From positions 248,001 through 312,000 of the forward strand of contig NZ_JACHCI010000004.1 of the NCBI RefSeq assembly GCF_014200675.1: a DNA stretch of 64,000 nt, read 5' to 3'. The DNA is from Janthinobacterium saanense (GTDB lineage: Bacteria > Pseudomonadota > Gammaproteobacteria > Burkholderiales > Burkholderiaceae_D). Numbering within the stretch: the stretch's first letter is position 1; each line of letters begins with the position of its first letter. Shown here piece after piece: positions 6,874-51,742 of the stretch. Under the pieces are notes generated by a model. It did no database searches, was not told the origin of the DNA, and saw only the letters and a program-made list of their open reading frames with translations. A program made the position numbers and the translations under genes.

Positions 6874-8754
6874 GTGAATAACATGTTTTCCAAATCTGCC
6901 ATCTGGGTAGTCGTCTTGCTGCTGTTGTTCATGCTGTTCAAACAGTTCGACAGCCACGGCAGCTCGGGCGGCAGCAAATCCATCGCTTATTCCGATTTGC
7001 TGGATGAAGTCAAAGCCAAGCGTGTCAAGGATGTGGTGATCGAGGGTTCGGCGATTACCGCCAAGATGATGGACGATACCAAGGTCCGCACTACCGCGAC
7101 CATGCTCGACAAGGGCCTGATCGGCGATCTGCGTGACAATGGCGTGCACTTCGATGTGCGTCCACCAGAGGAAGTAGGTTTCCTGCAACAAATTTTCATG
7201 AACTGGTTCCCGATGCTGCTGTTGATCGGCGTCTGGATTTTCTTCATGCGTCAGATGCAGGGCGGCGGCAAGGGCGGGGCATTCTCGTTCGGCAAGTCGA
7301 AAGCCCGCATGATGGATGAAGCCAGCAACACAGTGACCTTCGCTGACGTCGCCGGTTGCGACGAGGCGAAAGAAGAAGTCAACGAAGTGGTCGACTTCCT
7401 CAAGGATCCGAGCAAATTCCAGAAACTGGGCGGCCGCATTCCACGCGGCGTGCTGATGGTAGGTCCTCCAGGCACGGGTAAAACCCTGCTGGCGCGCGCC
7501 ATCGCCGGTGAAGCCAAAGTGCCATTCTTCTCGATCTCCGGTTCGGACTTCGTTGAAATGTTCGTCGGCGTGGGTGCGTCCCGCGTGCGCGACATGTTTG
7601 AAAACGCCAAGAAACACTCGCCTTGCATCATCTTCATCGATGAGATCGACGCTGTCGGCCGTCATCGTGGCGCCGGCACGGGCGGTGGTAATGATGAGCG
7701 CGAACAAACCTTGAACCAGTTGCTGGTCGAGATGGACGGTTTTGAAGCGAACTCCGGCGTGATCGTCGTGGCCGCCACCAACCGCGCCGACGTGCTCGAC
7801 AAGGCGCTGTTGCGTCCAGGCCGTTTCGACCGCCAGGTATCGGTTGGCTTGCCGGATATCCGCGGCCGCGAACAGATCTTGAACGTGCACATGCGCAAAG
7901 TGCCTATCGCCACCGATGTCAAGGCCGATATCCTGGCCCGTGGCACGCCTGGCTTCTCGGGCGCCGACCTGGCCAACCTGGTCAACGAAGCTGCCCTGTT
8001 CGCCGCGCGCCGCAGCAAGCGCCTGGTGGAAATGGCGGACTTCGAAGATGCGAAAGACAAGATCTACATGGGTCCTGAACGTAAATCGATGATCATCCGC
8101 GAGGAAGAACGTCGCAATACGGCTTACCATGAGTCCGGTCACGCGGTGGTGGCGAAATTGCTGCCGAAAGCTGATCCTGTGCATAAAGTGACGATCATGC
8201 CGCGCGGCTGGGCCCTGGGCCTGACCTGGCAGTTGCCGGAACACGATAACTTGTCCGCTTACAAGGACAAGATGCTGGAAGAAATTTCCATCCTGTTCGG
8301 TGGCCGTATCGCTGAAGAAATTTTCGTCGGCCAGATGTCCACCGGCGCTTCGAATGACTTCTCGCGCGCCACCAAGCTGGCCCGTTCCATGGTCACGCGC
8401 TTCGGCATGTCCGACAGCATGGGCGTGATGGTCTACGAAGACAGCGAAAACGAAGGCTTCTTCGGCGGCGCGACCAAAACGATTTCGGAAGCGACCCAGC
8501 AAAAGGTGGACGCTGAAATCCGCAGCATCCTCGACACGCAATATGCGTTGTCGCGCAAGCTGCTGGAAGAAAACCGTGACAAGGTGGAAGTGATGACCCG
8601 CGCCTTGCTGGAATGGGAAACCATCGATGCAGAGCAGATCAATGACATCATGGCTGGCCTGGAGCCACGTCCACCTAAAGTCATTCCGCCACGCCGCAAT
8701 GCGGGCGACAGCGGCACCGGTGGCATTTCGCCGAACGTGACGGCGCCAGCCTGA
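6874..8754 (+). CDS. ftsH: ATP-dependent zinc metalloprotease FtsH
   Basis: 626 residues. FtsH is a membrane-anchored AAA+ protease that degrades membrane proteins and regulators such as RpoH and LpxC. Two membrane segments (about residues 6-22 and 108-128) flank a periplasmic loop. The AAA domain has Walker A GPPGTGKT at 197-204, Walker B IIFIDEID and the second region of homology LLRPGRFDR. The zinc protease motif HESGH is at 419-423. The start is a GTG placed 5 bases after AAGGAG; an in-frame ATG three codons later is possible but less well spaced. A clear terminator follows. Confidence 0.98.
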
Positions 8755-8786
8755 TTCCAGCGCTGCCAGTCTCTGGTTAAAGTAAC

Positions 8787-8820
8787 AAAGGGTAAGGAGT
8801 GATCCTTGCCCTTTTTCTTT
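8787..8820 (+). terminator. Intrinsic terminator of ftsH
   Basis: Stem AAAGGGTAAGGA (8787-8798) pairs with TCCTTGCCCTTT (8803-8814), followed by TTTCTTT. Confidence 0.85.
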
Positions 8821-8860
8821 GCCGCTACAATCTGCATACGCTTTTTTACCGAGTTATTAG

Positions 8861-9715
8861 ATGCACATGCGACATTATTTTCAAGTTGGCCGTTTCGGCT
8901 TTCAGCTGCACGGGCAGGGCGCGCAGGCGCTGGTGATGGGCATCCTGAATATCACCCCTGATTCGTTTTCCGATGCGGGCCAGTTTCACAGCCTGGAGTT
9001 TGCCCTGTCGCGGGCCGAACAGATGATCGCCGACGGCGTCGACATCATCGATATCGGCGGTGAATCGAGCCGGCCCGGCGCGCCGCCATTGCCCTTGCAA
9101 GAGGAATTGCAAAGGGTGATGCCGGTGCTGTATGCCTTGCGCGATTGCGGCAAGCCCTTGTCCGTCGACACATATAAGCCGCAAGTCATGCGCGAAGCCA
9201 TCCTGGCTGGCGCCGACATGATCAACGATATCAACGCTTTTCGCGCGCCAGGCGCCATCGCTGCCGTGCGCGACAGCGATTGTGCGCTGTGTATCATGCA
9301 TATGCAGAGCGTGCCTGCCACCATGCAGGACCAGCCCGAATACGAAGACGTGGTGCGCGAAGTCATCGACTTTTTACGCGAGCGCGTGGAGACCATGACG
9401 GCGGCCGGCATCGACCGTGAACGCCTGTGTATCGATCCCGGCTTTGGCTTCGGCAAGACGGTGGAACAGAATTACGCCTTGCTGCGCGCCACGCGCCATT
9501 TGCGCAGCGAACTGGGCTTGCCTGTATTGGCCGGCCTGTCGCGCAAGTCCATGATAGGTGCCGTCACGGGCCGGCCCGTCGAGCAGCGCCTGGCGGGCAG
9601 TCTGGCTGGGGCACTTGTTGCTGTAGCGCAAGGCGCGGAAATTGTACGTGTGCATGATGTTGCGGAGACAGTCGATGCACTGAAGGTCTGGCGCATGGCG
9701 CATGCACCGGTCTGA
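8861..9715 (+). CDS. folP: Dihydropteroate synthase
   Basis: 284 residues. It condenses p-aminobenzoate with dihydropterin pyrophosphate in folate synthesis and is the sulfonamide target. The pterin-binding TIM barrel shows [15 protein letters not shown] near residue 26 and [12 protein letters not shown] near residue 60, the two signatures of the family, then the SVDTYK strand, INDINAF and the late [10 protein letters not shown]. Glucosamine mutase follows 35 bases downstream; the folP-glmM pair is conserved across proteobacteria. A second in-frame ATG lies two codons in. Confidence 0.97.
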
Positions 9716-9750
9716 AAATTACTATTAGCTATAAAAAGAAGAGAGTATCT

Positions 9751-11088
9751 ATGAGCCGCAAATATTTTGGTACCGATGGCATCCGTGGCCTGGTGGGCAC
9801 GGCACCGATCACCCCCGACTTTGTCATGCGCCTCGGCTATGCAGCCGGCAAGGTGTTGGCCAAGTCGCATGGCGCCAAGGTGCGTCCTACCGTGTTGATC
9901 GGCAAGGACACGCGCATTTCCGGCTATATGCTGGAAGCGGCGCTGGAGGCGGGATTTTCGGCTGCCGGTGTCGATGTGATGCTGGCCGGCCCCATGCCGA
10001 CGCCGGCGATTGCCTACCTGACGCGCGCGCTGCGCCTGACGGCTGGCGTGGTGATTTCCGCGTCGCACAATCCTTTCCACGACAATGGCATCAAGTTTTT
10101 CTCGGGCCAGGGCACCAAGCTGCCCGACAGCGTGGAGAGCGAGATCGAACTGGCGCTGGACGTAGCCATGGAATGCGTGGCATCGGACAAGCTGGGCCGT
10201 GCCAAGCGACTTGATGATGCGCAAGGCCGTTATATCGAGTTTTGCAAAAGCACTTTCCCTAACGAGCTGGACTTGCATGGCTTGAAGATCGTCGTCGATT
10301 GCGCGCATGGCGCCGCCTACCATATCGCGCCGCATGTCTTCCACGAACTGGGCGCGGAAGTGATCGCCATCGGCAACAAGCCCGATGGCTTGAACATCAA
10401 TGCGGGTTTTGGCGCCACGGCGCCCAAGGCCATGGCGGCGGCGGTGGTCGAACATGGCGCCGACCTGGGCATTGCGCTCGATGGTGATGCGGACCGCTTG
10501 ATCATGTGCGACGCCACCGGCCGTTTGTATAACGGCGACGAGTTGCTGTATCTGATGGTAAAGGACCGCCTGGCCAGCGGCCCCGTGGACGGTGCAGTCG
10601 GCACCTTGATGACGAATATGGCGCTGGAAGTGTTGCTCAAGGAAAAAGGCATCGGTTTCGCGCGTGCCAAGGTGGGTGACCGCTACGTGCTGGAAATCAT
10701 GAAAGAGCGCGGCTGGCTGCTGGGCGGCGAAGGCTCCGGCCACTTGCTGTGCCTGGACAAGCATACGACGGGCGATGGCATCGTCTCGTCGCTGCAAGTG
10801 CTGTCGGCGCTCAAGCGCAGCGGCCTGAGCCTGCAGGAATGCCTGGCCGACCTGGTGCTGTTCCCGCAAACCCTGATCAACCTGCGCGTGGCGCCCGGTT
10901 TCGACTGGCAGCAAAACGCCGCGATGGTGGCCGAAAAAGCCAGGGTGGAAGAGGAGTTGGGCGATAGCGGCCGCGTGCTGATACGCGCTTCCGGCACCGA
11001 GCCGCTGATACGCGTGATGGTGGAAGCGAAGGACAAGGACAAGGCGGAAAGCATGGCCCGTAGAATTGCAGCGCACGTCCCTGTTTAA
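9751..11088 (+). CDS. glmM: Phosphoglucosamine mutase
   Basis: 445 residues, the family length. It interconverts glucosamine-6-phosphate and glucosamine-1-phosphate on the way to UDP-GlcNAc for peptidoglycan and LPS. The opening [10 protein letters not shown] is typical; the phosphorylated Ser is in [17 protein letters not shown] (about residue 105); the metal loop DGDADR is near residue 246; the sugar-binding GEGSGH and the phosphate-binding [12 protein letters not shown] near the C-terminus are intact. AAGAGAG upstream gives the ribosome site. Confidence 0.97.
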
Positions 11089-11143
11089 AGCCGGGGTTTA
11101 AGGCAGGAATCGATTTTATTTCCCCTTATTTTGTCTATGGCAA

Positions 11144-11172
11144 TTGACGAAATTGTGGGGAAGCGCTATTAT
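11144..11172 (+). promoter_or_regulatory. Sigma-70 promoter of tRNA-Pro
   Basis: TTGACG at 11144-11149 and TATTAT at 11167-11172 with a 17-base spacer, ending 8 bases before the mature tRNA. Confidence 0.8.
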
Positions 11173-11180
11173 CTTGTCTT

Positions 11181-11257
11181 CGGAGTGTGGCGCAGCCCGG
11201 TAGCGCACCTGGTTTGGGACCAGGGGGTCCAAGGTTCGAATCCTTGTACTCCGACCA
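11181..11257 (+). tRNA. tRNA-Pro (anticodon UGG)
   Basis: Acceptor arms CGGAGTG and TACTCCG pair with one G-T wobble. The anticodon loop is TTTGGGA between CCTGG and CCAGG, giving TGG. The T arm contains GGTTCGAATCC, and CCA is encoded. 77 bases. Confidence 0.97.
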
Positions 11258-11263
11258 AAATAT

Positions 11264-11296
11264 AAGCGGGCTGTCAGAAATGACAGCCCGCTTTTC
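11264..11296 (+). terminator. Intrinsic terminator after tRNA-Pro
   Basis: A perfect 13-bp stem AAGCGGGCTGTCA (11264-11276)/TGACAGCCCGCTT (11281-11293) with a GAAA tetraloop, followed by TTC. It separates the tRNA-Pro and tRNA-Arg transcripts. Confidence 0.85.
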
Positions 11297-11363
11297 ATTG
11301 TGACGCTGTTTGGCAAGGAGCAATTCCGCTGTCATCGAGCATTAGTTACAATGCTGCACCTTT

Positions 11364-11438
11364 CCGCCCATCGTTCAACGGATAGGACAACGGTCTTCTA
11401 AACCGTGAATGGGGGTTCGATTCCCTCTGGGCGGACCA
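11364..11438 (+). tRNA. tRNA-Arg (anticodon UCU)
   Basis: Acceptor CCGCCCA pairs with TGGGCGG; discriminator A, then encoded CCA. The anticodon loop CTTCTAA lies between ACGGT and ACCGT. The T arm has GGTTCGATTCC. A TACAAT box 11 bases upstream (11347-11352) is a likely -10 element; no good -35 was seen. Confidence 0.96.
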
Positions 11439-11509
11439 GTATATGCTTCCATATGCCGGTCTCGGACGCCATCTGCAGGCGTTTTCTCTTTCCCGTTTTT
11501 CCCCCTTGT

Positions 11510-11692
11510 TTATGGCTGTGTGTACAGCACGGCAGCGAGCAGATAGACCAGCGGCACCGCACACAAAAGAGTTGCCACCAGCGAATACGTCTTGCGCGTA
11601 AATACATGCGCCAGGCGCAGCCGTTCGCGCGTGGGCAAGTCATGGCGGGCTGTGCGGTGTGTGCTTGATTGGGACAAATGTTGATAGTGCAT
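11510..11692 (-). CDS. Small predicted membrane protein, unrecognised
   Basis: 60 residues. A polar, basic N-terminal 35 residues is followed by one hydrophobic segment (SLVATLLCAVPLVYLLAAVL) near the C-terminus, so it is probably a single-pass inner-membrane protein with a cytoplasmic N-terminus. AGGAG lies 6 bases before the ATG, which is the main reason to accept it over longer overlapping frames. No family was recognised. Confidence 0.6.
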   Translation of the reverse strand: MHYQHLSQSSTHRTARHDLPTRERLRLAHVFTRKTYSLVATLLCAVPLVYLLAAVLYTQP

Positions 11693-11803
11693 GGAAGGCT
11701 CCTCGCGTGGACAATACTGATGCTGTCCAGCATAGCGAGAGAGGCCTAAAAACCGTGTAAATAGCGTGCCCTGGCCTGTAGTGAAGGTGTAAAAGCGCCG
11801 GCG

Positions 11804-12409
11804 CTAGTCGTCCTTGCTGTCCCCATTCTTGTTATTGCCAAACAGGCGATCCTTGGCATTGAGCAGCTTGTGCACCTTGGCGCCCATCTTCATCAGCTGC
11901 GCCATCGATTCAGGCGACAGACGCTGCAAATCGTCGAACCAGGTATTGGCCAGGTCGACCAGTTCATACATTTCACGCATGCGCTCCTGCGCATACTGGT
12001 CCACGGGTTCCGTGGCCGGCGTCATCAGCGATTCGCGCAGCACCGTGAGGGTGGGCGCCACTTCGCGGCGGCGGCGCTCGGCGGCCACTACGCGGAAGAT
12101 TTGCCATACATCGCCCAGCGATGAAAAATACTCGCGCCGGTCACCCGGAATGCGCGTCAACCGTATCAATCCCCAGCTCTGCAATTCCTTCAGGCCGATG
12201 CTCACGTTCGAGCGCGAAAAACTCAGCTGTTCTGCGATTTCGTCTGCATGCAAAGGTTGCTCAGATACAAACAATAAGGCGTACACTTGCCCAACCGTCC
12301 GGTTAAAACCCCAGCGGCTGCCCATCTCGCCGAAGTGGCTGACGAAGGTCAGGATCAGCGGAGTCATGTTGATATGGTGAGTTTTCATAATTAACTGAAA
12401 TTTTTGCAT
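11804..12409 (-). CDS. GbsR/MarR-type winged-helix transcriptional regulator
   Basis: 201 residues. The winged-helix domain covers about residues 20-100: GQVYALLFVSEQPLHADEIA, the recognition helix LSFSRSNVSIGLKELQSWG, then the wing with GDRREYFSS. The C-terminal half is helical and probably dimerises. The gene is divergent from cydD with 96 bases between starts, so control of the bd-oxidase operon and of itself is the likely job; this is inferred from position. An in-frame ATG at residue 8 is an alternative start. The family also includes the choline-responsive GbsR, but there are no betaine genes here. Confidence 0.85.
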   Translation of the reverse strand: MQKFQLIMKTHHINMTPLILTFVSHFGEMGSRWGFNRTVGQVYALLFVSEQPLHADEIAEQLSFSRSNVSIGLKELQSWGLIRLTRIPGDRREYFSSLGDVWQIFRVVAAERRRREVAPTLTVLRESLMTPATEPVDQYAQERMREMYELVDLANTWFDDLQRLSPESMAQLMKMGAKVHKLLNAKDRLFGNNKNGDSKDD

Positions 12410-12505
12410 GCAGTGGAGGCTGGGTCAATTGATATCTGGCACGTTTCGCAGTATTATACAAAATATCGAATTTACAGAGATTTCTGAAAACTCAAGAAGT
12501 ATCTA
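12410..12505. promoter_or_regulatory. Divergent control region of the regulator and cydD
   Basis: AT-rich relative to the flanks. It contains the small inverted repeat CAGA GATT TCTG (within 12470-12490), a candidate operator. No FNR-like TTGAT-N4-ATCAA was found. Confidence 0.35.
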
Positions 12506-14194
12506 ATGTCCAAGACGCCACTTTCTTTACCGCAGTTCGACCTTCCCCGTTTTGCCAGCCTGGTGCAGGGCGGCGCCGCCTTGCTGTGGTTGCCGCAGGC
12601 GGCCTTGCTGGCCTGGGCCATCGACGCCATGTTGACGGGTTCCCCTTGGCAAGCCGCGCTGGCGCCGGCCGCAGGCGTATTGCTGCTGGGCCTGCTGCGC
12701 GCCTGGGCGGAAGCCTGGGGTGCGCGCACCATGTATGCGGCGGCCCGTGTCCACCTGTCCAGCTTGCGTGCGCAAGTGGCGCTTTCCCTGGCGCAGCGTT
12801 CGCCGCTGGACCGCCAGCGTGCGCAGTCGGGCCAGGCTGCCAGCGTGATGGCCGAACAGGCCGAAGCCATCGTGCCTTATCTGGTGCGCTACAAACCCAC
12901 GCGCTGGAAAGTTTTGCTGGTGCCGTTAGTGATACTGGCGGTAGTTCTGTCATTCTCCTGGGTCGCCGCGCTGATTCTGCTGATTGCCGCGCCCTTGATT
13001 CCTGTTTTCATGGCCCTGGTCGGCATGGGTGCGCAGGCGGCCAGCCGTGCGCAGATGGTGGAAATGGGCGGCATGAATGCCTTCTTGCTGGACCGCCTGC
13101 GTGGCCTGGCCACCTTGCGTGCGCTCGACGCCGTCGACGCCACGGCCAGCCGCCTCGATGAAACGGCGCAATCCTTGCGCCAGCGCACGATGATGGTGCT
13201 GCGCATCGCCTTTTTGTCTTCCGCCGTGCTGGAACTGTTTTCCGCGCTGGGCGTAGCCATGGTGGCGGCCTATATCGGTTTTTCACTGCTGGGCACATTC
13301 CACTTCGGCAGCTGGGGCCATGTCTTGACCCTGGGCGAGGGCATGTTCATCCTCTTGCTGGCGCCTGCCTTTTTTGAACCGCTGCGTGAACTGGCCGCCG
13401 TCTGGCATGACAAGGCGGCCGGCGAGGCGGCCCTGGCCGGTTTGCACGACCTGGCCGCCGAAGGCCTGGCCTTGCCTGGCGGCGCAACTCGTTCTGTTGC
13501 ACCGGCTGTTTTTTCAGCGCCACCCTCCATCGAGATTCGCCAGCTGCAGTTTGCCCAGTTGGACGAAGCGCCGTTGTTTAGCCAGTTTGACCTGCATGTG
13601 CGTGGCGGCGAACACGTGGCCTTGCTGGGCGCCAGCGGCGCTGGCAAGACCAGCTTGCTTTCCTTGCTGGCTGGCTTGCTGCCAGCGAACGGCGGAGAAA
13701 TCCGCATCGGCGGCGTGCTGATGAGCGATGCCAGCGTGGCGACCTTGCGCCAGCGCATGGCGTGGATGGGCCAGCGTCCGCACGTATTTGCCGCTTCCGT
13801 CAGCCAGAACGTGACCCTGGGCCGCGCCGATGCCGACCCGGCAAGCGTGGCTGCCGCGCTGCACCTGGCCGACTTGTCTGCCGTAACCCAGGCACGGCCA
13901 GGCGTGATGCTCAGCGATGGCGGCCAGGGACTATCGGGTGGCGAAGCGGTGCGGCTGGCCTTGGCCCGCGTTGCCGTTGCCGTGCAGACGGCGCATGCCG
14001 ACTTGCTGTTGGTCGATGAGCCGACCGCCCACCTCGACAGCGAAACGGCTAGCCGCGTCACCGACGCCTTGCTGGCCCTGGCCAAGGGCAAGACCATGAT
14101 TGTTGCCACGCATGATCCCGTATTGGCCAGCCGCTTGCAGCGCAGCATCGCCATCGGCCCGGAGCTGGCAATGCTGGAGGCCTTGCGCGCATGA
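12506..14194 (+). CDS. cydD: Thiol reductant ABC exporter subunit CydD
   Basis: 562 residues. A half-transporter that with CydC exports glutathione/cysteine to the periplasm and is needed for cytochrome bd assembly. A six-helix ABC transmembrane domain occupies about residues 20-320. The nucleotide-binding domain has Walker A GASGAGKT at 375-382, the signature LSGGEA at about 476, Walker B LLLVDEP near 500 and the His switch ATHD. The stop overlaps cydC by four bases (ATGA). The cydDC pair is upstream of cydAB here. Confidence 0.95.
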   Translation: MSKTPLSLPQFDLPRFASLVQGGAALLWLPQAALLAWAIDAMLTGSPWQAALAPAAGVLLLGLLRAWAEAWGARTMYAAARVHLSSLRAQVALSLAQRSPLDRQRAQSGQAASVMAEQAEAIVPYLVRYKPTRWKVLLVPLVILAVVLSFSWVAALILLIAAPLIPVFMALVGMGAQAASRAQMVEMGGMNAFLLDRLRGLATLRALDAVDATASRLDETAQSLRQRTMMVLRIAFLSSAVLELFSALGVAMVAAYIGFSLLGTFHFGSWGHVLTLGEGMFILLLAPAFFEPLRELAAVWHDKAAGEAALAGLHDLAAEGLALPGGATRSVAPAVFSAPPSIEIRQLQFAQLDEAPLFSQFDLHVRGGEHVALLGASGAGKTSLLSLLAGLLPANGGEIRIGGVLMSDASVATLRQRMAWMGQRPHVFAASVSQNVTLGRADADPASVAAALHLADLSAVTQARPGVMLSDGGQGLSGGEAVRLALARVAVAVQTAHADLLLVDEPTAHLDSETASRVTDALLALAKGKTMIVATHDPVLASRLQRSIAIGPELAMLEALRA

Positions 14195-15978: not shown

Positions 15979-17550
15979 ATGGACCTCGACATTGTTGCAT
16001 TATCAAGACTGCAATTTGGGCTGACCGCCCTGTACCACTTTATTTTCGTTCCGCTGACCATTGGCCTGTCCGTGATGCTGGCCATCATGGAGACGGTCTA
16101 CGTGATGACGGGGCGCACCATCTGGCGCGACATGACCAAGTTCTGGGGCGTGCTGTTCGGCATTAACTTTGCCATGGGCGTAGCCACCGGCATCGTCATG
16201 GAATTTCAGTTCGGCATGAACTGGAGCTATTACAGCCATTATGTGGGCGATATTTTCGGCGCGCCGCTGGCCATCGAGGGCTTGATGGCCTTCTTCCTGG
16301 AAGCGACCTTTGTCGGCATCTTCTTCTTTGGCTGGGATAAATTGTCGGCGCGCGGCCATCTGGCCACGACCTGGCTGGTGGCCATCGGCTCGAACTTCTC
16401 GGCCCTGTGGATTTTGATCGCCAACGGCTGGATGCAAAACCCGGTCGGCGCCGCCTTCAATCCGCAAACCATGCGCATGGAAGTGACTGACTTTGGCGCC
16501 GTGCTGACCAATCCGGTGGCGCAGGCCAAATTCGTGCATACGGTCTCTGCCGGCTACACGGTGGCCGCCATTTTCGTGCTGGGCGTGTCGGCCTGGTATC
16601 TGCTCAAGGGGCGCCACGTGCAGCTGGCCAAGCGCTCGATGACGGTGGCGGCCTCGTTCGGCCTGGCCGCCTCGCTGTCGGTGGTGGTGCTCGGCGATGA
16701 AAGCGGTTATCTGTCGTCGGAACATCAAAAGATGAAGCTGGCCGCGATTGAAGCCATGTGGCACACGGAGCCGGCGCCTGCCGCCTTCACGGCCTTCGGT
16801 TTCCCCGACCAGAAGGCGCGCGAAACGCATTACGCGATTCATGTGCCGATGGTGATGGGCCTGATCGGCACGCGTTCGCTGTCGACCGAGATTCCCGGCA
16901 TCAATGAACTGGTCGAACGCGGCGAGTTGCTGATACAGGATGGCATCAAGGCCTATGATGCGCTGCAAACCATCCGCAGCGTGCCGCCCGGTGGCGCGGT
17001 GCCGCAAGAGGCCAAGGATATCTTTGAATCGAAAGGCAATTCGCTGGGGTATGCGCTGCTGCTGAAACGTTATGTCGACGATCCGCGCCTGGCCACGCCC
17101 GAGCAGATCAGCAAGGCGGCGCAAGACACCGTGCCTGCCGTGGCGCCGCTGTTCTGGTCCTTCCGCGTGATGGTGGGCCTGGGCATGTTCTTCATTGCGC
17201 TGACCGCCACCTTCTTTATTTTGTCGGTGCGCCGCACCCTGGACGCCCACCGCTGGCTCTTGAAAGTGGCCGTGTTCGCCATTCCACTGCCGTGGATTGC
17301 CGCCGAAGCGGGCTGGATCGTGGCCGAAGTAGGTCGCCAGCCGTGGGTGATCGAAGGCGTGTTGCCGACGGCCGTGGCGGTATCGAACCTGGGCATCACG
17401 ACCCTGTTGATCACGATTGCCGGCTTTGCCGCAATCTACACCGTGCTGCTGATTATCGAGATGAAGCTGATGCTGAAGGCGATCCGCAAGGGTCCCGACG
17501 AAACGGTGCCCGCCGCCGCGCCTTCCGTCACCCGCACTCAACTCGCTTAA
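15979..17550 (+). CDS. cydA: Cytochrome bd ubiquinol oxidase subunit I
   Basis: 523 residues, the length of the long Q-loop (E. coli-type) CydA. It oxidises ubiquinol and carries haems b558, b595 and d. The opening LSRLQFGLTALYHFIFVP holds His20, the expected haem axial ligand. The Q-loop contains TRSLSTEIPGINEL and a GYALLLKRY segment, as in E. coli CydA. The GRQPW signature near residue 455 is intact. AAGGAAAAGCAA precedes the ATG. High oxygen affinity would support respiration at low oxygen. Confidence 0.97.
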   Translation: MDLDIVALSRLQFGLTALYHFIFVPLTIGLSVMLAIMETVYVMTGRTIWRDMTKFWGVLFGINFAMGVATGIVMEFQFGMNWSYYSHYVGDIFGAPLAIEGLMAFFLEATFVGIFFFGWDKLSARGHLATTWLVAIGSNFSALWILIANGWMQNPVGAAFNPQTMRMEVTDFGAVLTNPVAQAKFVHTVSAGYTVAAIFVLGVSAWYLLKGRHVQLAKRSMTVAASFGLAASLSVVVLGDESGYLSSEHQKMKLAAIEAMWHTEPAPAAFTAFGFPDQKARETHYAIHVPMVMGLIGTRSLSTEIPGINELVERGELLIQDGIKAYDALQTIRSVPPGGAVPQEAKDIFESKGNSLGYALLLKRYVDDPRLATPEQISKAAQDTVPAVAPLFWSFRVMVGLGMFFIALTATFFILSVRRTLDAHRWLLKVAVFAIPLPWIAAEAGWIVAEVGRQPWVIEGVLPTAVAVSNLGITTLLITIAGFAAIYTVLLIIEMKLMLKAIRKGPDETVPAAAPSVTRTQLA

Positions 17551-17563
17551 GGAGGACCATACC

Positions 17564-18718
17564 ATGATCCTGCATGAAATGATTTCTTACGAAACCCTGC
17601 GCCTGATCTGGTGGCTGCTGATCGGCGTGCTGCTGGTCGGCTTTGCCATCACGGACGGCTTCGACCTGGGCACAGGCATTTTGCTGCCGTTCGCCGGCAA
17701 GACCGACCTGGAACGCCGCGTCATCATCAACAGCATCGGCCCCGTGTGGGAAGGCAACCAGGTGTGGCTGATACTGGGCGGCGGCGCCATCTTCGCCGCC
17801 TGGCCGCAGCTGTACGCGGTGTCGTTCTCGGGCTTTTACCTGGCCATGTTCGTCATTCTGGTGGCGCTGATCTTGCGCCCGGTAGCCTTCAAGTTCCGCA
17901 GCAAGCGTGAAGATCCGCGCTGGCGCACCCGCTGGGATGCGGTACTGTTCATCGGCGGCTTCGTACCGGCCCTGATCTGCGGCGTGGCAATCGGCAACGT
18001 GCTGCAAGGCGTGCCGTTCCGTTTCTCGTCCGACATGCACATCTTTTATGACGGCAGCTTCTTTGCCCTGCTGAATCCGTTTGCCGTGCTGTGCGGCCTG
18101 GTTTCGGTTGCCATGCTGGTCATGCATGGCGCCACCTGGCTGCAATTGAAGACCGATGGCGTGGTGGCTGAGCGCGCGCGCCGCTACGGCAGCGTGGCCG
18201 CGATTGCCACCATCGTGCTGTATGCGCTGGCCGGCGTGGCCCTGTGGTTCTGGGTCGATGGCTACCGCATCACCAGCACGGTGGTGGTCGATGGCCCGTC
18301 GAACCCCATGCTGAAAACGGCCGAGCTGCATGCCGGCGCCTGGTTCCTCAATTTCGCTGCCCATCCGTGGATCTGGACCGCACCCGTGCTGGGCCTGGCA
18401 GCGCCGCTGCTGGCGTTTGCCTTCCAGCGCGCACGCCGCGAAGTGCCGGCCCTGCTGGCCAGCGCGGTCAGTATCGCCGGCATCATCCTCAGCGTGGGCG
18501 CGACCATGTTCCCCTTCATTTTGCCATCGTCTATCGACCCGCGCGCCAGCCTGACGGTGTGGGATTCCTCGTCCAGCCACATGACCTTGTTCATCATGCT
18601 GGTGGTCACGGCCATCTTTATTCCCCTGATCGTGGCGTACACGAGCTGGGTCTATAAAGTGCTGTGGGGCAAGGTTGATGGCAAGGCCATCGAAGACGGT
18701 AACGGCCACGCCTATTGA
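17564..18718 (+). CDS. cydB: Cytochrome bd ubiquinol oxidase subunit II
   Basis: 384 residues, the family length, with about eight membrane helices. It forms the bd oxidase with CydA and CydX. Family landmarks are present: LIGVLLVGFAITDGFDLG near the N-terminus, NSIGPVWEGNQVWLI near residue 55, and the C-terminal SSSHMTLFIMLVVTAIFIPL helix. AAGGAGGACCATACC gives a strong ribosome site. 13 bases separate it from cydA. Confidence 0.97.
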   Translation: MILHEMISYETLRLIWWLLIGVLLVGFAITDGFDLGTGILLPFAGKTDLERRVIINSIGPVWEGNQVWLILGGGAIFAAWPQLYAVSFSGFYLAMFVILVALILRPVAFKFRSKREDPRWRTRWDAVLFIGGFVPALICGVAIGNVLQGVPFRFSSDMHIFYDGSFFALLNPFAVLCGLVSVAMLVMHGATWLQLKTDGVVAERARRYGSVAAIATIVLYALAGVALWFWVDGYRITSTVVVDGPSNPMLKTAELHAGAWFLNFAAHPWIWTAPVLGLAAPLLAFAFQRARREVPALLASAVSIAGIILSVGATMFPFILPSSIDPRASLTVWDSSSSHMTLFIMLVVTAIFIPLIVAYTSWVYKVLWGKVDGKAIEDGNGHAY

Positions 18719-46030: not shown

Positions 46031-46486
46031 ATGACCCATCTGAAAACCCTGCTGGCAACCGCCCTGACCGTATTGTCCTTTTCCGCCATCGCGCAAAACA
46101 CCGTGAAAGTGACGGACGCCTGGGTACGCGCCACCGTGCCGCAGCAAAAGGCCACGGGCGCCTTCATGCAAATTACCGCGCCGAAAAACATGCGCTTGCT
46201 GGAAGTGCGTTCCACTGTCGCTGGCGTGGCGGAAATCCATGAAATGAGCACCGTCGACAATATGATGCGCATGCGCCAGGTCAAGGAAGTGCCGCTGCCG
46301 GCCGGCAAGGCGGTGGAATTGCAACCTGGCGGCTACCACGTGATGCTGCTGCAATTGAAAAACCAGGTCAAGGTAGGCGACAAGATCCCGCTGACCCTGG
46401 TGGTGGAAGGCGAGGACAAGCACCGTGAAACCATCGAAGTGACGGCCGTGGCCCGTCCGCTGGGTGGCGCGGCGATGTCGCACTGA
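46031..46486 (+). CDS. PCuAC periplasmic copper chaperone
   Basis: 151 residues with a signal peptide (to SAIA-Q). The PCuAC copper motif is visible: EIHEMSTVDNMMRM, then the loop to GGYHVMLLQL, giving the His/Met ligands of the H-M...H-M pattern. It passes Cu(I) to cytochrome oxidase together with SCO1. A His/Met-poor C-terminus lacks the extra metal-binding tail of some homologues. DUF2946, SCO1 and PCuAC form one transcription unit. Confidence 0.93.
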   Translation: MTHLKTLLATALTVLSFSAIAQNTVKVTDAWVRATVPQQKATGAFMQITAPKNMRLLEVRSTVAGVAEIHEMSTVDNMMRMRQVKEVPLPAGKAVELQPGGYHVMLLQLKNQVKVGDKIPLTLVVEGEDKHRETIEVTAVARPLGGAAMSH

Positions 46487-46638
46487 TCGAAGGCTGATGC
46501 TTGTCTAAAAGTGATTGTGGGCTGATGGCAGGATACTGCTGCCAGCCCGCTGCACGTTTTCTGCAGTTAATCTACGTAAATAAAGTCGAAAATAATCTTC
46601 CGCGGCAACCCCACTCCCTTGGCTATTTCGCGTTTTTT

Positions 46639-48624
46639 TCAGGCACTTATCCCCGATTGACGTCCACCTCCTTGCAGCAGAGGCTTGATAACTTCGATGG
46701 CCTTGTTGTTCATGGGATAGCGGTGAGCGTGGAATGTATGCAATCGTTTTAGCTCATCTATTACAGCATCCACGTCGATATTTGCGCGCTTTAGTTCCTC
46801 ACCTAATATAGACGGATTCAATTGATTCAGTATGCAGGCGTGCAGAAACTCCAGTAGGTCATTGGGCTCCGCCTTGATGTAAGCCATGAAATCCGTGATG
46901 GTGGGTTGCTGTTCATCAGAAAATATTGGGTGACGCAAGTCATCCCGATATTTTGTGTCCCAAAATGCGCGCCGCAATGCCAAGTGATGCAGGTATGCTT
47001 TCCACCGATCTCGGTTAATCGTATCATCAATGTGCAATACTTCCATCGCCGCTAAGGATAGTGATTCATGTAATCGAACAATCTCGCTGGTCGGGCTGTC
47101 GAGGGTAGTCGCAAGATGACCTGCCACCTGGTCGAAGCAGGCCAGGCCCAGATAAGCTAGTGCTAGTAACAAACGACTCGCGTTCGTTTGGTCGGCGTAG
47201 CGTTCAGGCCCCGCGTCCTCGGCGCCAAATTCCAGTACTTCACGCAAGTAACAGGCGCTATCCCATAGTTGCTGCCATCGAAGTGCATAGTCGTTCTCCG
47301 ATGTCAGGGGCAGCGCGAGCAAATGCGACAACAAGTCCGGTGCGTTATTATTGCTTGAAAGATGCGGGCTGGCGCGCTCAATCAAATTACGGCCCTCTGC
47401 CTGAAACCAGGTTTCAGGCGTGATACGCCATTGACTGGCGAACTCTTCGAAGGATGGCTGGGGGGTGTTTTCGTTGTGTGCAAAAAAGGATCGTACGCAA
47501 CGATAGCACCAGTCTTCCCAAGCTGCGGCATCGCCTGGAATGTGCGAGATAAGTGCTTGGCCGAGCAAGGCTTTACCGATGGCTTTGATCAGTGCAATGT
47601 CGACGAAATAAGGGGACCTGATATCGTCAAATTCGTCGTCACTTTGCCCCAGTCGCGCGCGCATCAACCAGTTTGCCCAACGCAGTAACATCGGAATGGC
47701 ATCGCTTCGCGTTGCAAGAGTAGCTACCACGGCATCGACCAATTCGCTGACTTGGGAGGATAGCGCGACAACTTCATCCAGGTCGGCACCGAAACGCGGA
47801 ATCTGCCTGCCGGGAACCAACAGCTCGGCTCTGGCGTGCACTAGCAGTAAGGGCAACAAGACCGCGCCCGTCCATCGGCCATCTTGCTCAAATGCAAGCG
47901 GTGCTGCTTTGACAGCTGCTTCCCAATGCACATAGCGCGACTGAAAGCCAGTCACTTGCGCATCCATTAGCGCAGCATCCAGCAGGAAGGGATTGTGTGA
48001 CTGCGCAATCAATTGATGGAACTTTTCTGGCGCAATTTCATGGAGTAGACCAAAGAAGCGCATCTCCTCTTCATAGTTCATGAAGTCCGAGCCCCTGAGT
48101 CCCCACCACAACTCCTCGAGCTGTCGTATGGAGGTCTTCCAGTAGGAGCAAGCCCCTTCTCGTTGCTTATTTCGACGCTCTGATTCTGAATTTAGTGTGT
48201 TGTTTTCAAGCTGCTTGAACAGGAGGATAGCCAAATCCACATAAGCTTGGCTTGCATGAGTGTCGCGATGTGCCTGAGCCGACATCGCGTTTGCCAACCA
48301 ATGTTCGATTTGCCATGAATGATAAGCGATCTTCCTAACTTTTTTCCAGGTCTCCAACTGCGGATATTTGGCAAGCGCCGTGGCACAGGCCACTGTTAAT
48401 AGCATATCGGGATCACTCGTGGCATCGGCCTGTTGCTGGGCATGTTCGCGCAACGCATTAATTTCTGGCGAGATATCTGACACCATCAGATGCTTAACCA
48501 GAGTTTCGATGACATTTGGTGCGGTTCTGGCGAGGAATGTGAGAAACTCTTCTCGGCTTCTGAAATTGCCGTTATCCTGAAAGGGTTCAGGTTTCGTCTT
48601 CCGTTCGTCAATCCATTGCATCAT
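46639..48624 (-). CDS. Large probably helical protein of unknown family, third gene of the PLD-like operon
   Basis: 661 residues. No catalytic motif, signal peptide or membrane segment was found. The composition (Leu, Ala, Trp, many EE/DE clusters) and the periodic pattern of hydrophobic residues suggest an all-alpha, possibly repeat-containing scaffold. The ATG at 48624 overlaps the stop of the preceding gene as ATGA and is preceded by AAGGA, so it was preferred to a start eight codons upstream. Codon use looks less GC-rich than in the flanking genes. Its role is inferred only from the operon. Confidence 0.72.
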   Translation of the reverse strand: MMQWIDERKTKPEPFQDNGNFRSREEFLTFLARTAPNVIETLVKHLMVSDISPEINALREHAQQQADATSDPDMLLTVACATALAKYPQLETWKKVRKIAYHSWQIEHWLANAMSAQAHRDTHASQAYVDLAILLFKQLENNTLNSESERRNKQREGACSYWKTSIRQLEELWWGLRGSDFMNYEEEMRFFGLLHEIAPEKFHQLIAQSHNPFLLDAALMDAQVTGFQSRYVHWEAAVKAAPLAFEQDGRWTGAVLLPLLLVHARAELLVPGRQIPRFGADLDEVVALSSQVSELVDAVVATLATRSDAIPMLLRWANWLMRARLGQSDDEFDDIRSPYFVDIALIKAIGKALLGQALISHIPGDAAAWEDWCYRCVRSFFAHNENTPQPSFEEFASQWRITPETWFQAEGRNLIERASPHLSSNNNAPDLLSHLLALPLTSENDYALRWQQLWDSACYLREVLEFGAEDAGPERYADQTNASRLLLALAYLGLACFDQVAGHLATTLDSPTSEIVRLHESLSLAAMEVLHIDDTINRDRWKAYLHHLALRRAFWDTKYRDDLRHPIFSDEQQPTITDFMAYIKAEPNDLLEFLHACILNQLNPSILGEELKRANIDVDAVIDELKRLHTFHAHRYPMNNKAIEVIKPLLQGGGRQSGISA

Positions 48625-49250
48625 CGTGTTTCCTTGCACTTTTCCCATACCAGCTCAAAAAAATTGACCGCCCCCACATCCTCTGCGCTCCAGCCACGGC
48701 TGGCTGCACTGACGCTGGCGTGGAAACCGCCCACTGTCGCACCGAAATGCCAAAGTTCGTCATCGACAATGGCAAATCGGTCATGCACATCAATCGGGCC
48801 TCGCGTGAGGCAGGTGTTAATCTCAATCAGGCAGCGTGTGTCGCGCCGAGCTTGCATGGTATTGATATAGTTTTCCTTATCCTTGAACAGCTGTAAGAAT
48901 TCCGCCGTTATTTCATCGTGTTGTGCGGTGAGAATTCTGATATCACTGGCTACAAGTTTGGCATGCAACCAATCCAGAACTGTAATGATGCGCTCGTCTG
49001 GTTTACGCTTTTCCTCTGGCGCCAGAAAATATTTATCCATGACCCATATTCGCTTCACTGCGTTCATCACGGCATAGCGGAATGCATACAAGGGTTGCGG
49101 CGCAGGTGCACGTTTGCGTGCACCGATGGTATCTATATCGCGTGGGAAGTGCGTGCTCCCGCCGCGCTCACAGCCCCACATAATTTCAGCTTTTAAGGTT
49201 GGGGATGAGTGCAAAGGGGGACGCTTTGGGGCAAGGCCGAAGTCTTTCAT
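48621..49250 (-). CDS. PLD-like single-motif protein, second gene of the operon
   Basis: 209 residues. Near the C-terminus, HDRFAIVDDELWHFG (His156) has the form HxRxxxxD, a PLD HxKxxxxD motif with Arg for Lys. The preceding RIWVMDKYFLAPEE and DIRILTAQHDE look like strands of the same fold. PLD enzymes need two motifs, so this protein would have to dimerise or pair with the first gene product. Starts and stops overlap by ATGA on both sides. The substrate (lipid, nucleic acid) is unknown. Confidence 0.75.
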   Translation of the reverse strand: MKDFGLAPKRPPLHSSPTLKAEIMWGCERGGSTHFPRDIDTIGARKRAPAPQPLYAFRYAVMNAVKRIWVMDKYFLAPEEKRKPDERIITVLDWLHAKLVASDIRILTAQHDEITAEFLQLFKDKENYINTMQARRDTRCLIEINTCLTRGPIDVHDRFAIVDDELWHFGATVGGFHASVSAASRGWSAEDVGAVNFFELVWEKCKETR

Positions 49251-50848
49251 TGCTTGCTTGATTTCACGTACGCTTTTTTCACTAGTTTGATGTAGCGATC
49301 CAGATCCGGCGCCGTGCAGGCTAGGGATTGCAGCTGCTTGATGACTTGGGTGGGGTCGGGCAGTCGCACGATCATTGAGGCTTTCTCTCCAAAGCCGCTA
49401 AGCGAGTTGCCGACAAACCACACATCATCATCCACTACAAGAAAACGGTCATGCAACTCGGCCGCCGAAATGATGGCCACTTGGGGTTGCAACTGTTGGT
49501 GTTTGTTGAGTTCGTCAAGACTGTTTTTGAACGACTCCAGCAAGGCCAGTCGGGTTTCATGCGAATGGGACGGTGGATTGAAGGCGAGCTTAGTGGTCAA
49601 CAGGGTAGTGTTAACCTGCTCGCCGTGTATCGCATAGAGAAACTGCCCCAGTTGCAAGGTGCCTAGGTAAGGGTCCGCTATCATTACCCTGAAACGTGCC
49701 GCGCGTAGCAGTTCCCGAACAAAATGCATCGCGTCCTCGCGGGAGCCAGCGGGAAACCATCGTTGCCCATAATGCTTGGCATGGGCCTGCATTTCCCGTT
49801 TCCTGACCTCTGCCGCCATACGCACACTAGGCTCGGCGTCGACCACAGCTCCCAAGACCGACGTGGTATCCCACTCGGTGGAGCTCGCCGCCTTGTACTC
49901 TGTTATCGGCGCGTCCGGAGCGCTGCCCGTGGGTACTTTGATATTCAAGGTGTTACCGGAGTTGACTCGCACGTTGAGATTTATCTGCCGCAGAAAACTT
50001 GTCGGTGGACTGTAGGCCAGCACACCGAGCTTGTTGTGACTCACCACGAAGCCGTACTGTCCCATGCAGCGTCCTTTATCCACCTCAAGGATGCCATCGG
50101 AGGGTATCTGGTACGTTTCAAAGTGAGTCAGTAGATTGGCCTCCTTGTCAAATGTGGTGACGCGTAACTCATCCAGACTCTGACCCGGACGCGGGACCAT
50201 ACGGTAGACGATTCGTTCCCCTTGTCCATTACTGGCCGGTACCATGAAATGGTCGATCTGGCGGACGATTGGGTCCGGCGAGATATACACCGCGCTGCCA
50301 AGATATTCTTTATAGTTAAATAGATTTATGTGCATGCGCCGGGCCACGAACGTATGGGCGTCGGCATCGTCAAGGAAGGCATTTAGGCCTACGGGATTAC
50401 CGAAACGGCGGTGCAGCCTAGCCGGCACGCTACCAATGAAGGGAGCCGGATTAATCGTCGGCGTGCGCTGGTGGGAAAACAGTTCCTCTGGAACAGGCAG
50501 ACCGAATACCGGCCAGGGTTGAGGATCCTCCAGTCGAGGCACCTGAATGCGCGGTCTCGAGGAATCACCTTGTTCGTTAGTTGCTGGGAAGGGAAAACAT
50601 GTTTCGCTTTCACTAAGTGAGGTGTACCAATCGATTGCCACCTCCTTTGGAATGACGATCCGGTGAAAGCACAAACGATTCTCAGTTCCTTTAAGCTTGA
50701 AGTGCTCCGGGCGCGTAAGCGCTCTTGGTGCTGGTCTACCGTGTGCCAGTTCGGTTATCGTGGTAAATAGCAGCTTGTCCACACTCCCCTTTTTCTGCAA
50801 GGTGACCAGCCGTACAACGGCCAAAGCCTGATTCTTAATTTCTGTCAT
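49247..50848 (-). CDS. PLD-like protein with long unknown N-terminal region, first gene of the operon
   Basis: 533 residues. The first 330 have no clear motif. From about residue 380, ARFRVMIADPYLGTLQLGQF and, at His466, HDRFLVVDDDVWFVGNSLSG form a PLD-like lobe with HxRxxxxD. It recalls proteins named VPA1262 family, an uncertain memory. AGGAA lies 5 bases before the ATG at 50848; an in-frame ATG seven codons upstream is less likely. The stop overlaps the next gene by ATGA. Confidence 0.75.
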   Translation of the reverse strand: MTEIKNQALAVVRLVTLQKKGSVDKLLFTTITELAHGRPAPRALTRPEHFKLKGTENRLCFHRIVIPKEVAIDWYTSLSESETCFPFPATNEQGDSSRPRIQVPRLEDPQPWPVFGLPVPEELFSHQRTPTINPAPFIGSVPARLHRRFGNPVGLNAFLDDADAHTFVARRMHINLFNYKEYLGSAVYISPDPIVRQIDHFMVPASNGQGERIVYRMVPRPGQSLDELRVTTFDKEANLLTHFETYQIPSDGILEVDKGRCMGQYGFVVSHNKLGVLAYSPPTSFLRQINLNVRVNSGNTLNIKVPTGSAPDAPITEYKAASSTEWDTTSVLGAVVDAEPSVRMAAEVRKREMQAHAKHYGQRWFPAGSREDAMHFVRELLRAARFRVMIADPYLGTLQLGQFLYAIHGEQVNTTLLTTKLAFNPPSHSHETRLALLESFKNSLDELNKHQQLQPQVAIISAAELHDRFLVVDDDVWFVGNSLSGFGEKASMIVRLPDPTQVIKQLQSLACTAPDLDRYIKLVKKAYVKSSKQ

Positions 50849-50888
50849 TACTTTCCTGCTCCTGTACATCTTGGCGGTCTAGGCGTGA

Positions 50889-50906
50889 ATCGACCACATG
50901 GTCGAT
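50889..50906. promoter_or_regulatory. Perfect 18-bp palindrome upstream of the PLD operon
   Basis: ATCGACCA-CA-TGGTCGAT, 41 bases before the start codon. Counting one unpaired base the arms extend to GTGA/TCAC. It is a candidate operator for an unlinked regulator; none is encoded in the operon. Confidence 0.55.
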
Positions 50907-51052
50907 CACTGCAGTTTTGGTAGTCACTGAGATTTCATCCGGTATCCTGCAATATAAAAGCATAGCATGTTGCTTAAAAGGAAAAATAGTGAATTCTCAC
51001 ATGGTGATCTTTTAATTTTGGTTCGTCGGGATTTTTTATGTCTGAAAGAAAA

Positions 51053-51089
51053 TTAAACGGCTGTTTGATATAATTAAACATCTGTTTAA
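51053..51089. promoter_or_regulatory. Tandem operator sites of the TetR regulator
   Basis: TTAAACGGCTGTTTGA (51053-51068) and TTAAACATCTGTTTAA (51074-51089) are two inverted repeats spaced 21 bases apart, two helical turns, directly in front of the TetR gene. Confidence 0.75.
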
Positions 51090-51103
51090 ATAATGGCACT
51101 GGA

Positions 51104-51742
51104 ATGACTGAGGAAAATACGCAGGAACCAGCCCGGCTGCGCATCTTGCAGACGGCCGTGGAGATGTTTGTCGAGCATGGCTACAAGGCGACGTCGGTGC
51201 GCAAGATATGCGAGGCTGCGCAAGTGAATGTGGCGATGGTCAATTATTACTTCCATAGCAAGGAAGAGCTGCACCTGGCTGCTTTTGACTACGCCAGGGA
51301 ATTGGCCCATGTAGCCGATAACGCTGCTGCTGCCACAGCTTTGCCGCCGGCCGAGCAATTGCGCCTGGCTATCGAAGAGCTGGTCTGCACCATGTTGCGT
51401 TCGGGGCCGTCGTCCCTGTTTGTGCGCCTGGTGGCGCGCGAATTGATCGAGCCGACGGCTGCGATTCATCGCCTGGCCGAGCGCCATGTGTTGCCGCAGC
51501 ACGCACAATTTACGCGGCTGATACGCGGCGTCGTTGGCCCGTGCTGGCCCGACGATGTGGTGCAGAAATGCGTCTTCAGCGTCATCGGCCAGGTGGTGTT
51601 TTATGCGCGTTCGCGCTCCGTGCACGAGCTGGTGGCGCCGGAAATCAGCTATGACGAGGCGGGCATCGCCGCCATCGCCGCACATATTTCCCGCTTTACT
51701 TTGGCGGCGCTGGCGAATATGTGTGCAGGAGAGCCAGTATGA
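51104..51742 (+). CDS. TetR-family regulator, CecR-like
   Basis: 212 residues. N-terminal helix-turn-helix: LRILQTAVEMFVEHGYKATSV, then RKICEAAQVNVAMVNYYFHS, where VNYYF is the recognition-helix end. The C-terminal domain (LFVRLVARELIEPTAAI) resembles the DUF1956 domain of CecR/YbiH. Two operator-like sites lie just upstream. It overlaps the MFS gene by four bases (ATGA), so regulator and exporter are one transcript and probably self-repressed until a ligand binds. Confidence 0.9.
   Translation: MTEENTQEPARLRILQTAVEMFVEHGYKATSVRKICEAAQVNVAMVNYYFHSKEELHLAAFDYARELAHVADNAAAATALPPAEQLRLAIEELVCTMLRSGPSSLFVRLVARELIEPTAAIHRLAERHVLPQHAQFTRLIRGVVGPCWPDDVVQKCVFSVIGQVVFYARSRSVHELVAPEISYDEAGIAAIAAHISRFTLAALANMCAGEPV

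Follow-up and report, generated by a model that had tools for sequence, protein, structure and literature searches.

The DNA analysed here, a 64,000-nucleotide stretch of Janthinobacterium saanense (contig NZ_JACHCI010000004.1, positions 248,001 to 312,000; hereafter the window), contains three closely packed leftwards-reading genes, which we refer to as A, B and C (Table 1). An earlier note on this DNA, prepared from the letters alone, had described genes for proteins of 533, 209 and 661 residues joined by ATGA overlaps, and had pointed to a single HDRF(x4)D motif in each of the first two; the genes, the overlaps and the motifs (at residue 466 of A and residue 156 of B) are all found as it gave them, on the minus strand. 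The ATG of gene A at 50848 is preceded by a Shine-Dalgarno-like AGGAG, and no sigma-70-like site lies upstream of the gene in a consensus-based scan covering 46400-51120. For the A, B and C proteins the Kyte-Doolittle means over 19 residues peak at 0.86, 1.07 and 1.62 respectively, and since the C maximum lies inside a predicted solenoid helix, none of the three appears to have a clear membrane segment. A short open tail on the minus strand (46565-46640), with its stop just past gene C, is possibly the leftover of another gene travelling with the cassette.

Table 1. Features of the A-B-C cassette and its insertion site, in window coordinates (PLD, phospholipase D)
Feature	Position	Strand	Description
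Gene A	49247..50848 (coding 49250-50848, stop 49247-49249)	-	533 residues; VPA1262_N_dom member
Parts of the A protein			N-terminal part, beta-rich middle and predicted PLD lobe at the C-terminus (about residues 353-529); HDRFLVVDD at residue 466
Gene B	48621..49250 (coding 48624-49250, stop 48621-48623)	-	209 residues; homologous to the PLD lobe of A by profile comparison
Motif of the B protein			HDRFAIVDDELWHFGATVGG at residue 156 (HDRFAIVDD)
Gene C	46639..48624 (coding 46642-48624, stop 46639-46641)	-	661 residues; predicted all-helical, solenoid-like
ATGA overlap, A stop / B start	49247..49250	-	4 nucleotides
ATGA overlap, B stop / C start	48621..48624	-	4 nucleotides
Inserted segment	46490..51019 (about 4.5 kb)		A-B-C with 149 bp to the left and 171 bp to the right; 25 bp instead in the closest relative
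Surviving 3' part of terminator-like hairpin and T-run of relatives	51020..51037		
Flanking genes	46031-46486 and 51104-51742		PCuAC and TetR, names given in the earlier note from the letters alone

Insertion into the Janthinobacterium chromosome

The closest relative, which is about 90% identical to the window at the DNA level on both sides of the cassette, aligns up to 46489 and again from 51020. Among 40 genomes of the genus, a match to gene C and an A domain above the cut-off are each present in one only, the window's own, and the proteins encoded on either side are widespread, the upstream one being matched in all 40 (E up to 1e-20) and the downstream one in 31 (E up to 1e-40). The flanking-gene matches lie 115-178 bp apart in all 30 relatives that have both, as against 4,620 bp in the window; the remaining nine of the 40 have no downstream-protein match at E 1e-40 and so stand outside this count. 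In one congener, a 1,635-residue open frame weakly matches the PLD part (L141; G016:C7:422019-422450).

The earlier note had supposed that the cassette is lower in GC content than the two genes beside it and had proposed a search for an empty site in related genomes. The inserted segment has a GC content of 51.9% compared with 60.7% for the rest of the window, and the GC content at third codon positions is 0.61, 0.55 and 0.55 in A, B and C, compared with 0.71-0.80 in five neighbouring genes. The empty site is evident in the adjacency of the flanking genes, and far from all related genomes carrying the three genes at this place, none of the relatives with both flanks does. Nearly all of 29 relatives inspected have a terminator-like hairpin at this site, and the 25 bp that the segment replaces in the closest relative contain most of its 5' arm, showing that the cassette landed in the terminator; the insertion lost most of the 5' arm and kept the 3' arm and the T-run. 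With only 149 bp and 171 bp present besides A-B-C there is too little room for a recombinase gene, and no second copy of the left edge (46487-46650) was found in the 40 genomes of the genus at E 1e-5. The A-B-C block is thus supported as an insertion from elsewhere, and as mobile.

Protein families, predicted folds and motifs

The A protein is a member of the VPA1262_N_dom family (NCBIfam NF040700), which it matches over nearly its whole length with 342.1 bits (E 4.9e-102) and well above the curated cut-off of 80 bits; with 28.7 bits it falls below the 325-bit curated cut-off of the full-length VPA1262 family (NF040699). The family description names no function. Neither A nor B has a match above threshold in Pfam or PHROGs. 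PADLOC matches up to E 1 are confined to PDC-S05, matched by both A and B, and NsnC, matched by A, with C having none; the C-terminal lobe of A matches positions 159-280 of the 285 in the PDC-S05 profile at 3.1e-14, and the motif region of B matches it weakly (2.6e-4). Sequence searches of solved structures returned only transthyretin-like matches for A (E 0.035-0.34), four unrelated matches for B (E 0.064-0.31), and no match for C.

The predicted model of A (mean predicted local distance difference test [pLDDT] score 83.5, predicted template-modelling [pTM] score 0.58, from 24 sequences) begins with an N-terminal part of mixed structure, continues through a middle that is rich in beta structure, and has the PLD lobe at its C-terminal end. 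By VIA-align the lobe resembles SauUSI (Z 13.8, 3.1 Å, 148 aligned residues), phosphatidylserine synthase (Z 13.5), NucT (Z 13.0, 2.8 Å, 141 aligned), Nuc (Z 12.7, 3.0 Å, 142 aligned) and R.NgoAVII (Z 10.9), where Z differences under 1 are ties and the first four structures are tied or nearly so. The predicted structure thus supports the assignment of the C-terminal third of A to the PLD-superfamily fold, with the motif within the lobe as had been suspected from the letters. For B the PLD-like lobe is borne out by profile-profile homology, the B profile aligning with the lobe of A at 97.8% by hhalign (E 6.8e-13) over 105 columns that include the motif.

The His, Arg and Asp of the A motif, together with the Gly and Ser that follow, are invariant in all 28 aligned A proteins, and the His, Arg and Asp of the B motif are invariant in 23 of 23 aligned B proteins, in an alignment that excludes L005 (broken), L031 (motif absent) and L112, and in which the repeats L104 (of L010) and L109 (of L026) are not counted. 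The same HDRF-type motif is carried by relatives of about 300 residues recovered in the A-profile scan. In a tree of 94 PLD-lobe rows, all 23 B rows fall on one side of a single branch with support of 97/95. The labels in this tree were set by length and locus, such that L005, L031, L068, L101 and L114 are labelled 'A without B' and L037 and L047 are labelled solo though grouping elsewhere; several long branches are flagged, and the tree retains one extraneous row, from a DNA polymerase frame of L004 that matches the motif pattern, which falls outside B. An HxKxxxxD-like string at residue 96 of B was judged to be due to chance, as L069 has an HxR form there and no other B protein does.

The C protein has no match above threshold in Pfam, NCBIfam, PADLOC or PHROGs, the sub-threshold matches being Utp12 (17.6 bits, threshold 31.5) and CysG_dimeriser (10.9 bits, threshold 23). 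Its predicted model is all helical (pLDDT 85.0, pTM 0.83, from 16 sequences), and the structural matches are to transportin and other solenoids, with transportin-3 at E 6.9e-4 in Foldseek. Where the earlier note gave the third protein no known domain, C is now predicted to be a helical solenoid.

Distribution, co-inheritance and neighbourhood

A scan of the genome collection with the A profile identified 60 loci. Scans of the viral collection gave two loci for A and three for B, two of the latter on the same contigs as A, and among 72,556 plasmid records seven were matched by A, four by B and one by C. The A domain is rare: counting the window's own genome, 4 of 399 genomes in the order and 5 of 398 in the phylum have it above the cut-off, and the full-length VPA1262 model is above its cut-off in none of 369 genomes of the class. 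Against the phage collection, the window A aligned with a single record, over 27% of the A length, and the A of L069 had no match; E. coli genomes searched at the DNA level contained nothing matching the opening 3.9-4.0 kb of the cassettes of L014 (Yersinia) or L070.

A, B and C are present in this order at 24 loci (the window, L003, L004, L009-L024, L034, L069, L070, L112 and L113), and the arrangement therefore exceeds chance. A gene is cut by the sequence end in L009, L034, L112 and L113, and C is strongly diverged in L004, L022, L024 and L113. Identity to the window A ranges from 25% to 48% among the aligned A proteins of these loci (L034 and L112 left out). Besides the window, 21 A-B-C loci were checked, and in all of them each junction has a start codon no more than 14 nucleotides from the upstream stop. 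Distance matrices from 18 loci are strongly correlated (A-B 0.92, A-C 0.95, B-C 0.89), the highest value in 2,000 permutations being 0.54, and co-inheritance of the three genes as a unit is supported. No conserved fourth gene was found, in that no neighbour family among flanking open frames of at least 100 residues comes from more than three of 20 loci.

Several individual loci have features of their own. L005, on an Azospirillum plasmid, has A, C and a frame-broken B (13125-13786), which is seemingly split, with the motif end in a different frame from the annotated start. L144 is a viral contig of lambda type with a shorter A of 464 residues together with B (8146-10159), shortly beyond which the contig stops. 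The L020 genome has a second, diverged A homologue elsewhere (G1159:C11:79607-80917). Two Pseudomonas loci share a 1,472-residue protein near the cassette (L017, 15811-20229; L018, 14064-18482); at 1e-5 the protein from L017 matches nothing in Pfam. Related recombinase-type frames are present near L003 (16476-17225), L005 (4545-5519) and L016 (6847-8583), the last being a Resolvase/Recombinase protein.

The cassette in L069 lies in a P2-like viral contig, in which a gpP-like terminase gene (6905-8704) is followed by a portal gene (8704-9732) that by its position is probably gpQ, then by A-B-C (9983-14159), a 581-residue frame, and the gpA replication gene (16584-18716). The 581-residue protein has a sub-threshold ORC-CDC6-like match. 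Rousset et al. (PMC9122126) describe a hotspot where P2-like phages of E. coli carry antiviral systems, namely the gpA-gpQ interval, and a three-gene system of this hotspot protects against phage P1. In L144, A and B are on the strand of the repressor gene, about 2.3 kb beyond it and opposite to the CII-, O- and Q-like genes. Defence genes also occur near some cassettes, with Gabija 2.9 kb downstream in L014, ietAS upstream in L015, and, 0.7 kb downstream of the L011 cassette, an Apea-like HEPN protein. Reading of product names finds defence-type names near five of six plasmid loci inspected (six of the seven records, the one left out being a second Burkholderia glumae), including TrlF-type ATPases, Abi-type, TIR and SIR2 proteins, and a multiubiquitin/ThiF operon. 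The portal-gpA position in L069, together with these defence neighbours, suggests that A-B-C may have an anti-phage role.

A possible mechanism and its relation to known systems

We propose that A-B-C is a mobile module acting against phages, with A and B joined in a heterodimeric HRD-type phosphodiesterase (probably a nuclease) that C holds, and we put the probability of this reading as a whole at a little under one half (about 0.48). The two paralogous PLD-lobe proteins would pair, with one HRD motif from each chain making up the active site, much as in a bilobal PLD enzyme split over two genes; the C solenoid would hold or recruit the A:B complex, the N-terminal and middle parts of A would probably recognise the trigger, and once a phage infects, the complex would cut nucleic acid of either the phage or the host. 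The results support the cassette as a unit and as mobile, the two PLD lobes (predicted in A and based on homology in B) and the conservation of the motifs, and we infer the pairing of A with B, the catalysis, the nucleic-acid substrate, the role of C and the anti-phage function. The interpretation in the earlier note is thus upheld in part, for the PLD lobes, the insertion and the co-inheritance. A narrower version is put forward tentatively, in which the module would be a new kind of anti-phage effector: A and B would be obligate partners, the two halves of a bilobal PLD nuclease of HRD type encoded by separate genes and mounted on a dedicated helical solenoid, and B would have arisen once, from a two-gene A-C ancestor with an A that works alone.

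A number of observations weigh against this proposal. At 14 loci (L006-L008, L025-L030, L032, L033, L035, L036 and L038) A is accompanied by a C relative without B, and A can therefore evidently work without B; a profile of 12 C relatives from these loci aligns with the C profile at 99.2% (E 9.5e-20), and no motif-bearing B is seen downstream of C in 13 of the 14, L027 ending within C. (In the Methylorubrum A-C locus L007 a 260-residue gene without the motif, at 13104-13886, overlaps the end of C, and SIR2 and TIR genes are nearby.) At L031 a B-like gene about 155 bp behind A (11193-11741) lacks the HDRF motif and is possibly an inactive variant. The sequences following the motif also differ, being of the GNSLN type in A and the GATVGG type in B, and because of this the two lobes are probably not interchangeable, much like the two differing lobes of a bilobal PLD enzyme. 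The same difference would suit an arrangement in which A is a homodimeric PLD nuclease and B a regulatory paralogue, whether an inhibitor, an antitoxin-like protein or a specificity factor. Single-motif PLD nucleases of the Nuc type are homodimers with one motif per chain, the A proteins of the B-less loci keep HDR(F/L)(x4)D, and solo PLD-lobe relatives exist; however, the retention of the B His, Arg and Asp in all 23 aligned rows goes beyond the need of a pure inhibitor, and B co-diverges with A (r 0.92), such that we consider this arrangement unlikely.

The motifs of both A and B have Arg in place of the canonical PLD Lys, and so match HxRxxxxD rather than HxKxxxxD, and the Foldseek list for A is led by the chromatin protein TrmBL2 (E 5.4e-6), with NucT next (E 3.6e-5). 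The matches of C, which might suggest a HEAT- or karyopherin-type solenoid, are of a strength common for any helical repeat (best VIA-align Z 10.6). It is conceivable, though we think it quite improbable, that the PLD lobes are a non-catalytic sensing or scaffolding fold as in TrmB and TrmBL2, with C or an unseen partner as the effector; the invariance of the motif residues in the 28 A and 23 B proteins speaks against this, as do the VIA-align comparisons, in which TrmBL2 (10.9 and less) scores below the nucleases SauUSI, NucT and Nuc (Z 12.7-13.8). For BrxL-HKD fusions of BREX, PMC12839542 (2026) describes the same replacement of Lys by Arg as one that 'likely' preserves activity. The defence-gene co-occurrence that the earlier note had proposed to survey was not clearly borne out by a crude PADLOC count. 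From 200 open frames at 16 A-B-C loci, 134 near the cassette were chosen and 133 scanned (a 1,518-residue frame being excluded), and at least eight of the 133 proteins have matches in the best 25 of 142 families, those traced being GajA, GajB, ietA, ietS, two SduA-type, one RmuC-type and one PDC-M48B-type. The control, drawn from 11 background segments of these genomes (the genome of L013 and the virus records left out) and comprising 97 proteins, gave eight families with one protein each, corresponding to at most eight and probably six proteins, three of the families being RtcR-type models; there is no clear enrichment near the cassettes. This count, together with the presence of A-B-C on conjugative plasmids and of A-B-C or A-B on viral contigs, would fit a module for the maintenance of, or competition between, mobile elements such as plasmids and prophages rather than phage defence. 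We regard such a role as quite unlikely, given the portal-gpA position of L069, in a region where tested antiviral systems are found in E. coli, and the chromosomal copy described here, which is an insert with no other gene of note.

If A and B do combine as we propose, the PLD active site would be built from two different proteins, an unusual arrangement that would naturally keep a nuclease inactive before assembly. A literature search on single-motif PLD nuclease dimers found nothing, and no published description of an A-B-C system or family was recognised among the matches listed, in a search that lay mostly outside subscription journals. The finding of a VPA1262-family module that is mobile and co-inherited, and in which A-B-C supplies two distinct PLD lobes together with a predicted helical solenoid, is a real gain in specificity over the earlier note. 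As the VPA1262 family has been named without a function, the fixed module and its presence in a prophage antiviral hotspot provide one that can be tested.

The VPA1262-type proteins are close in family terms, their N-terminal halves being homologous to A (hhalign 97.0%, E 1.2e-10) with an HDRY motif, but they are single chains of about 1,100 residues (L102, L103 and L111, all three cut by the sequence end, and L136-L139), unlike the three-gene A-B-C. We considered them as a 'Rosetta stone' fusion of A and C; the tail is similar in size, but no homology to C was detected by hhalign (3 and 7 tail sequences), and although a distant relation is possible, we do not claim such a fusion. The VPA1262 gene, after which the family is named, is in island VPaI-6 (VPA1254-VPA1270) of pandemic Vibrio parahaemolyticus (PMC1464126), and the passages on VPaI-6 in PMC10734457 do not treat VPA1262. 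PDC-S05 is a candidate single-gene defence protein, unlike the three-gene A-B-C; its C-terminal half matches the A lobe and its first half does not match A, so that the match does not extend over the whole model, and the PDCs are described as unvalidated (PMC12988326).

BrxL-HKD of BREX has an HRD variant in a phage-defence setting, as A and B may, and its lobe is the C-terminal part of BrxL, unlike the separate A and B genes. The three-gene P2-hotspot system active against P1 is presumably Rst_3HP. The nuclease domains of Nuc, NucT, SauUSI and R.NgoAVII share the predicted fold of the A lobe (Z 10.9-13.8) and have one motif per lobe. Compared with these PLD-fold nucleases, A-B-C has HxR rather than HxK, carries its two lobes on two genes, and adds the N-terminal and middle parts of A and the predicted helical protein C.

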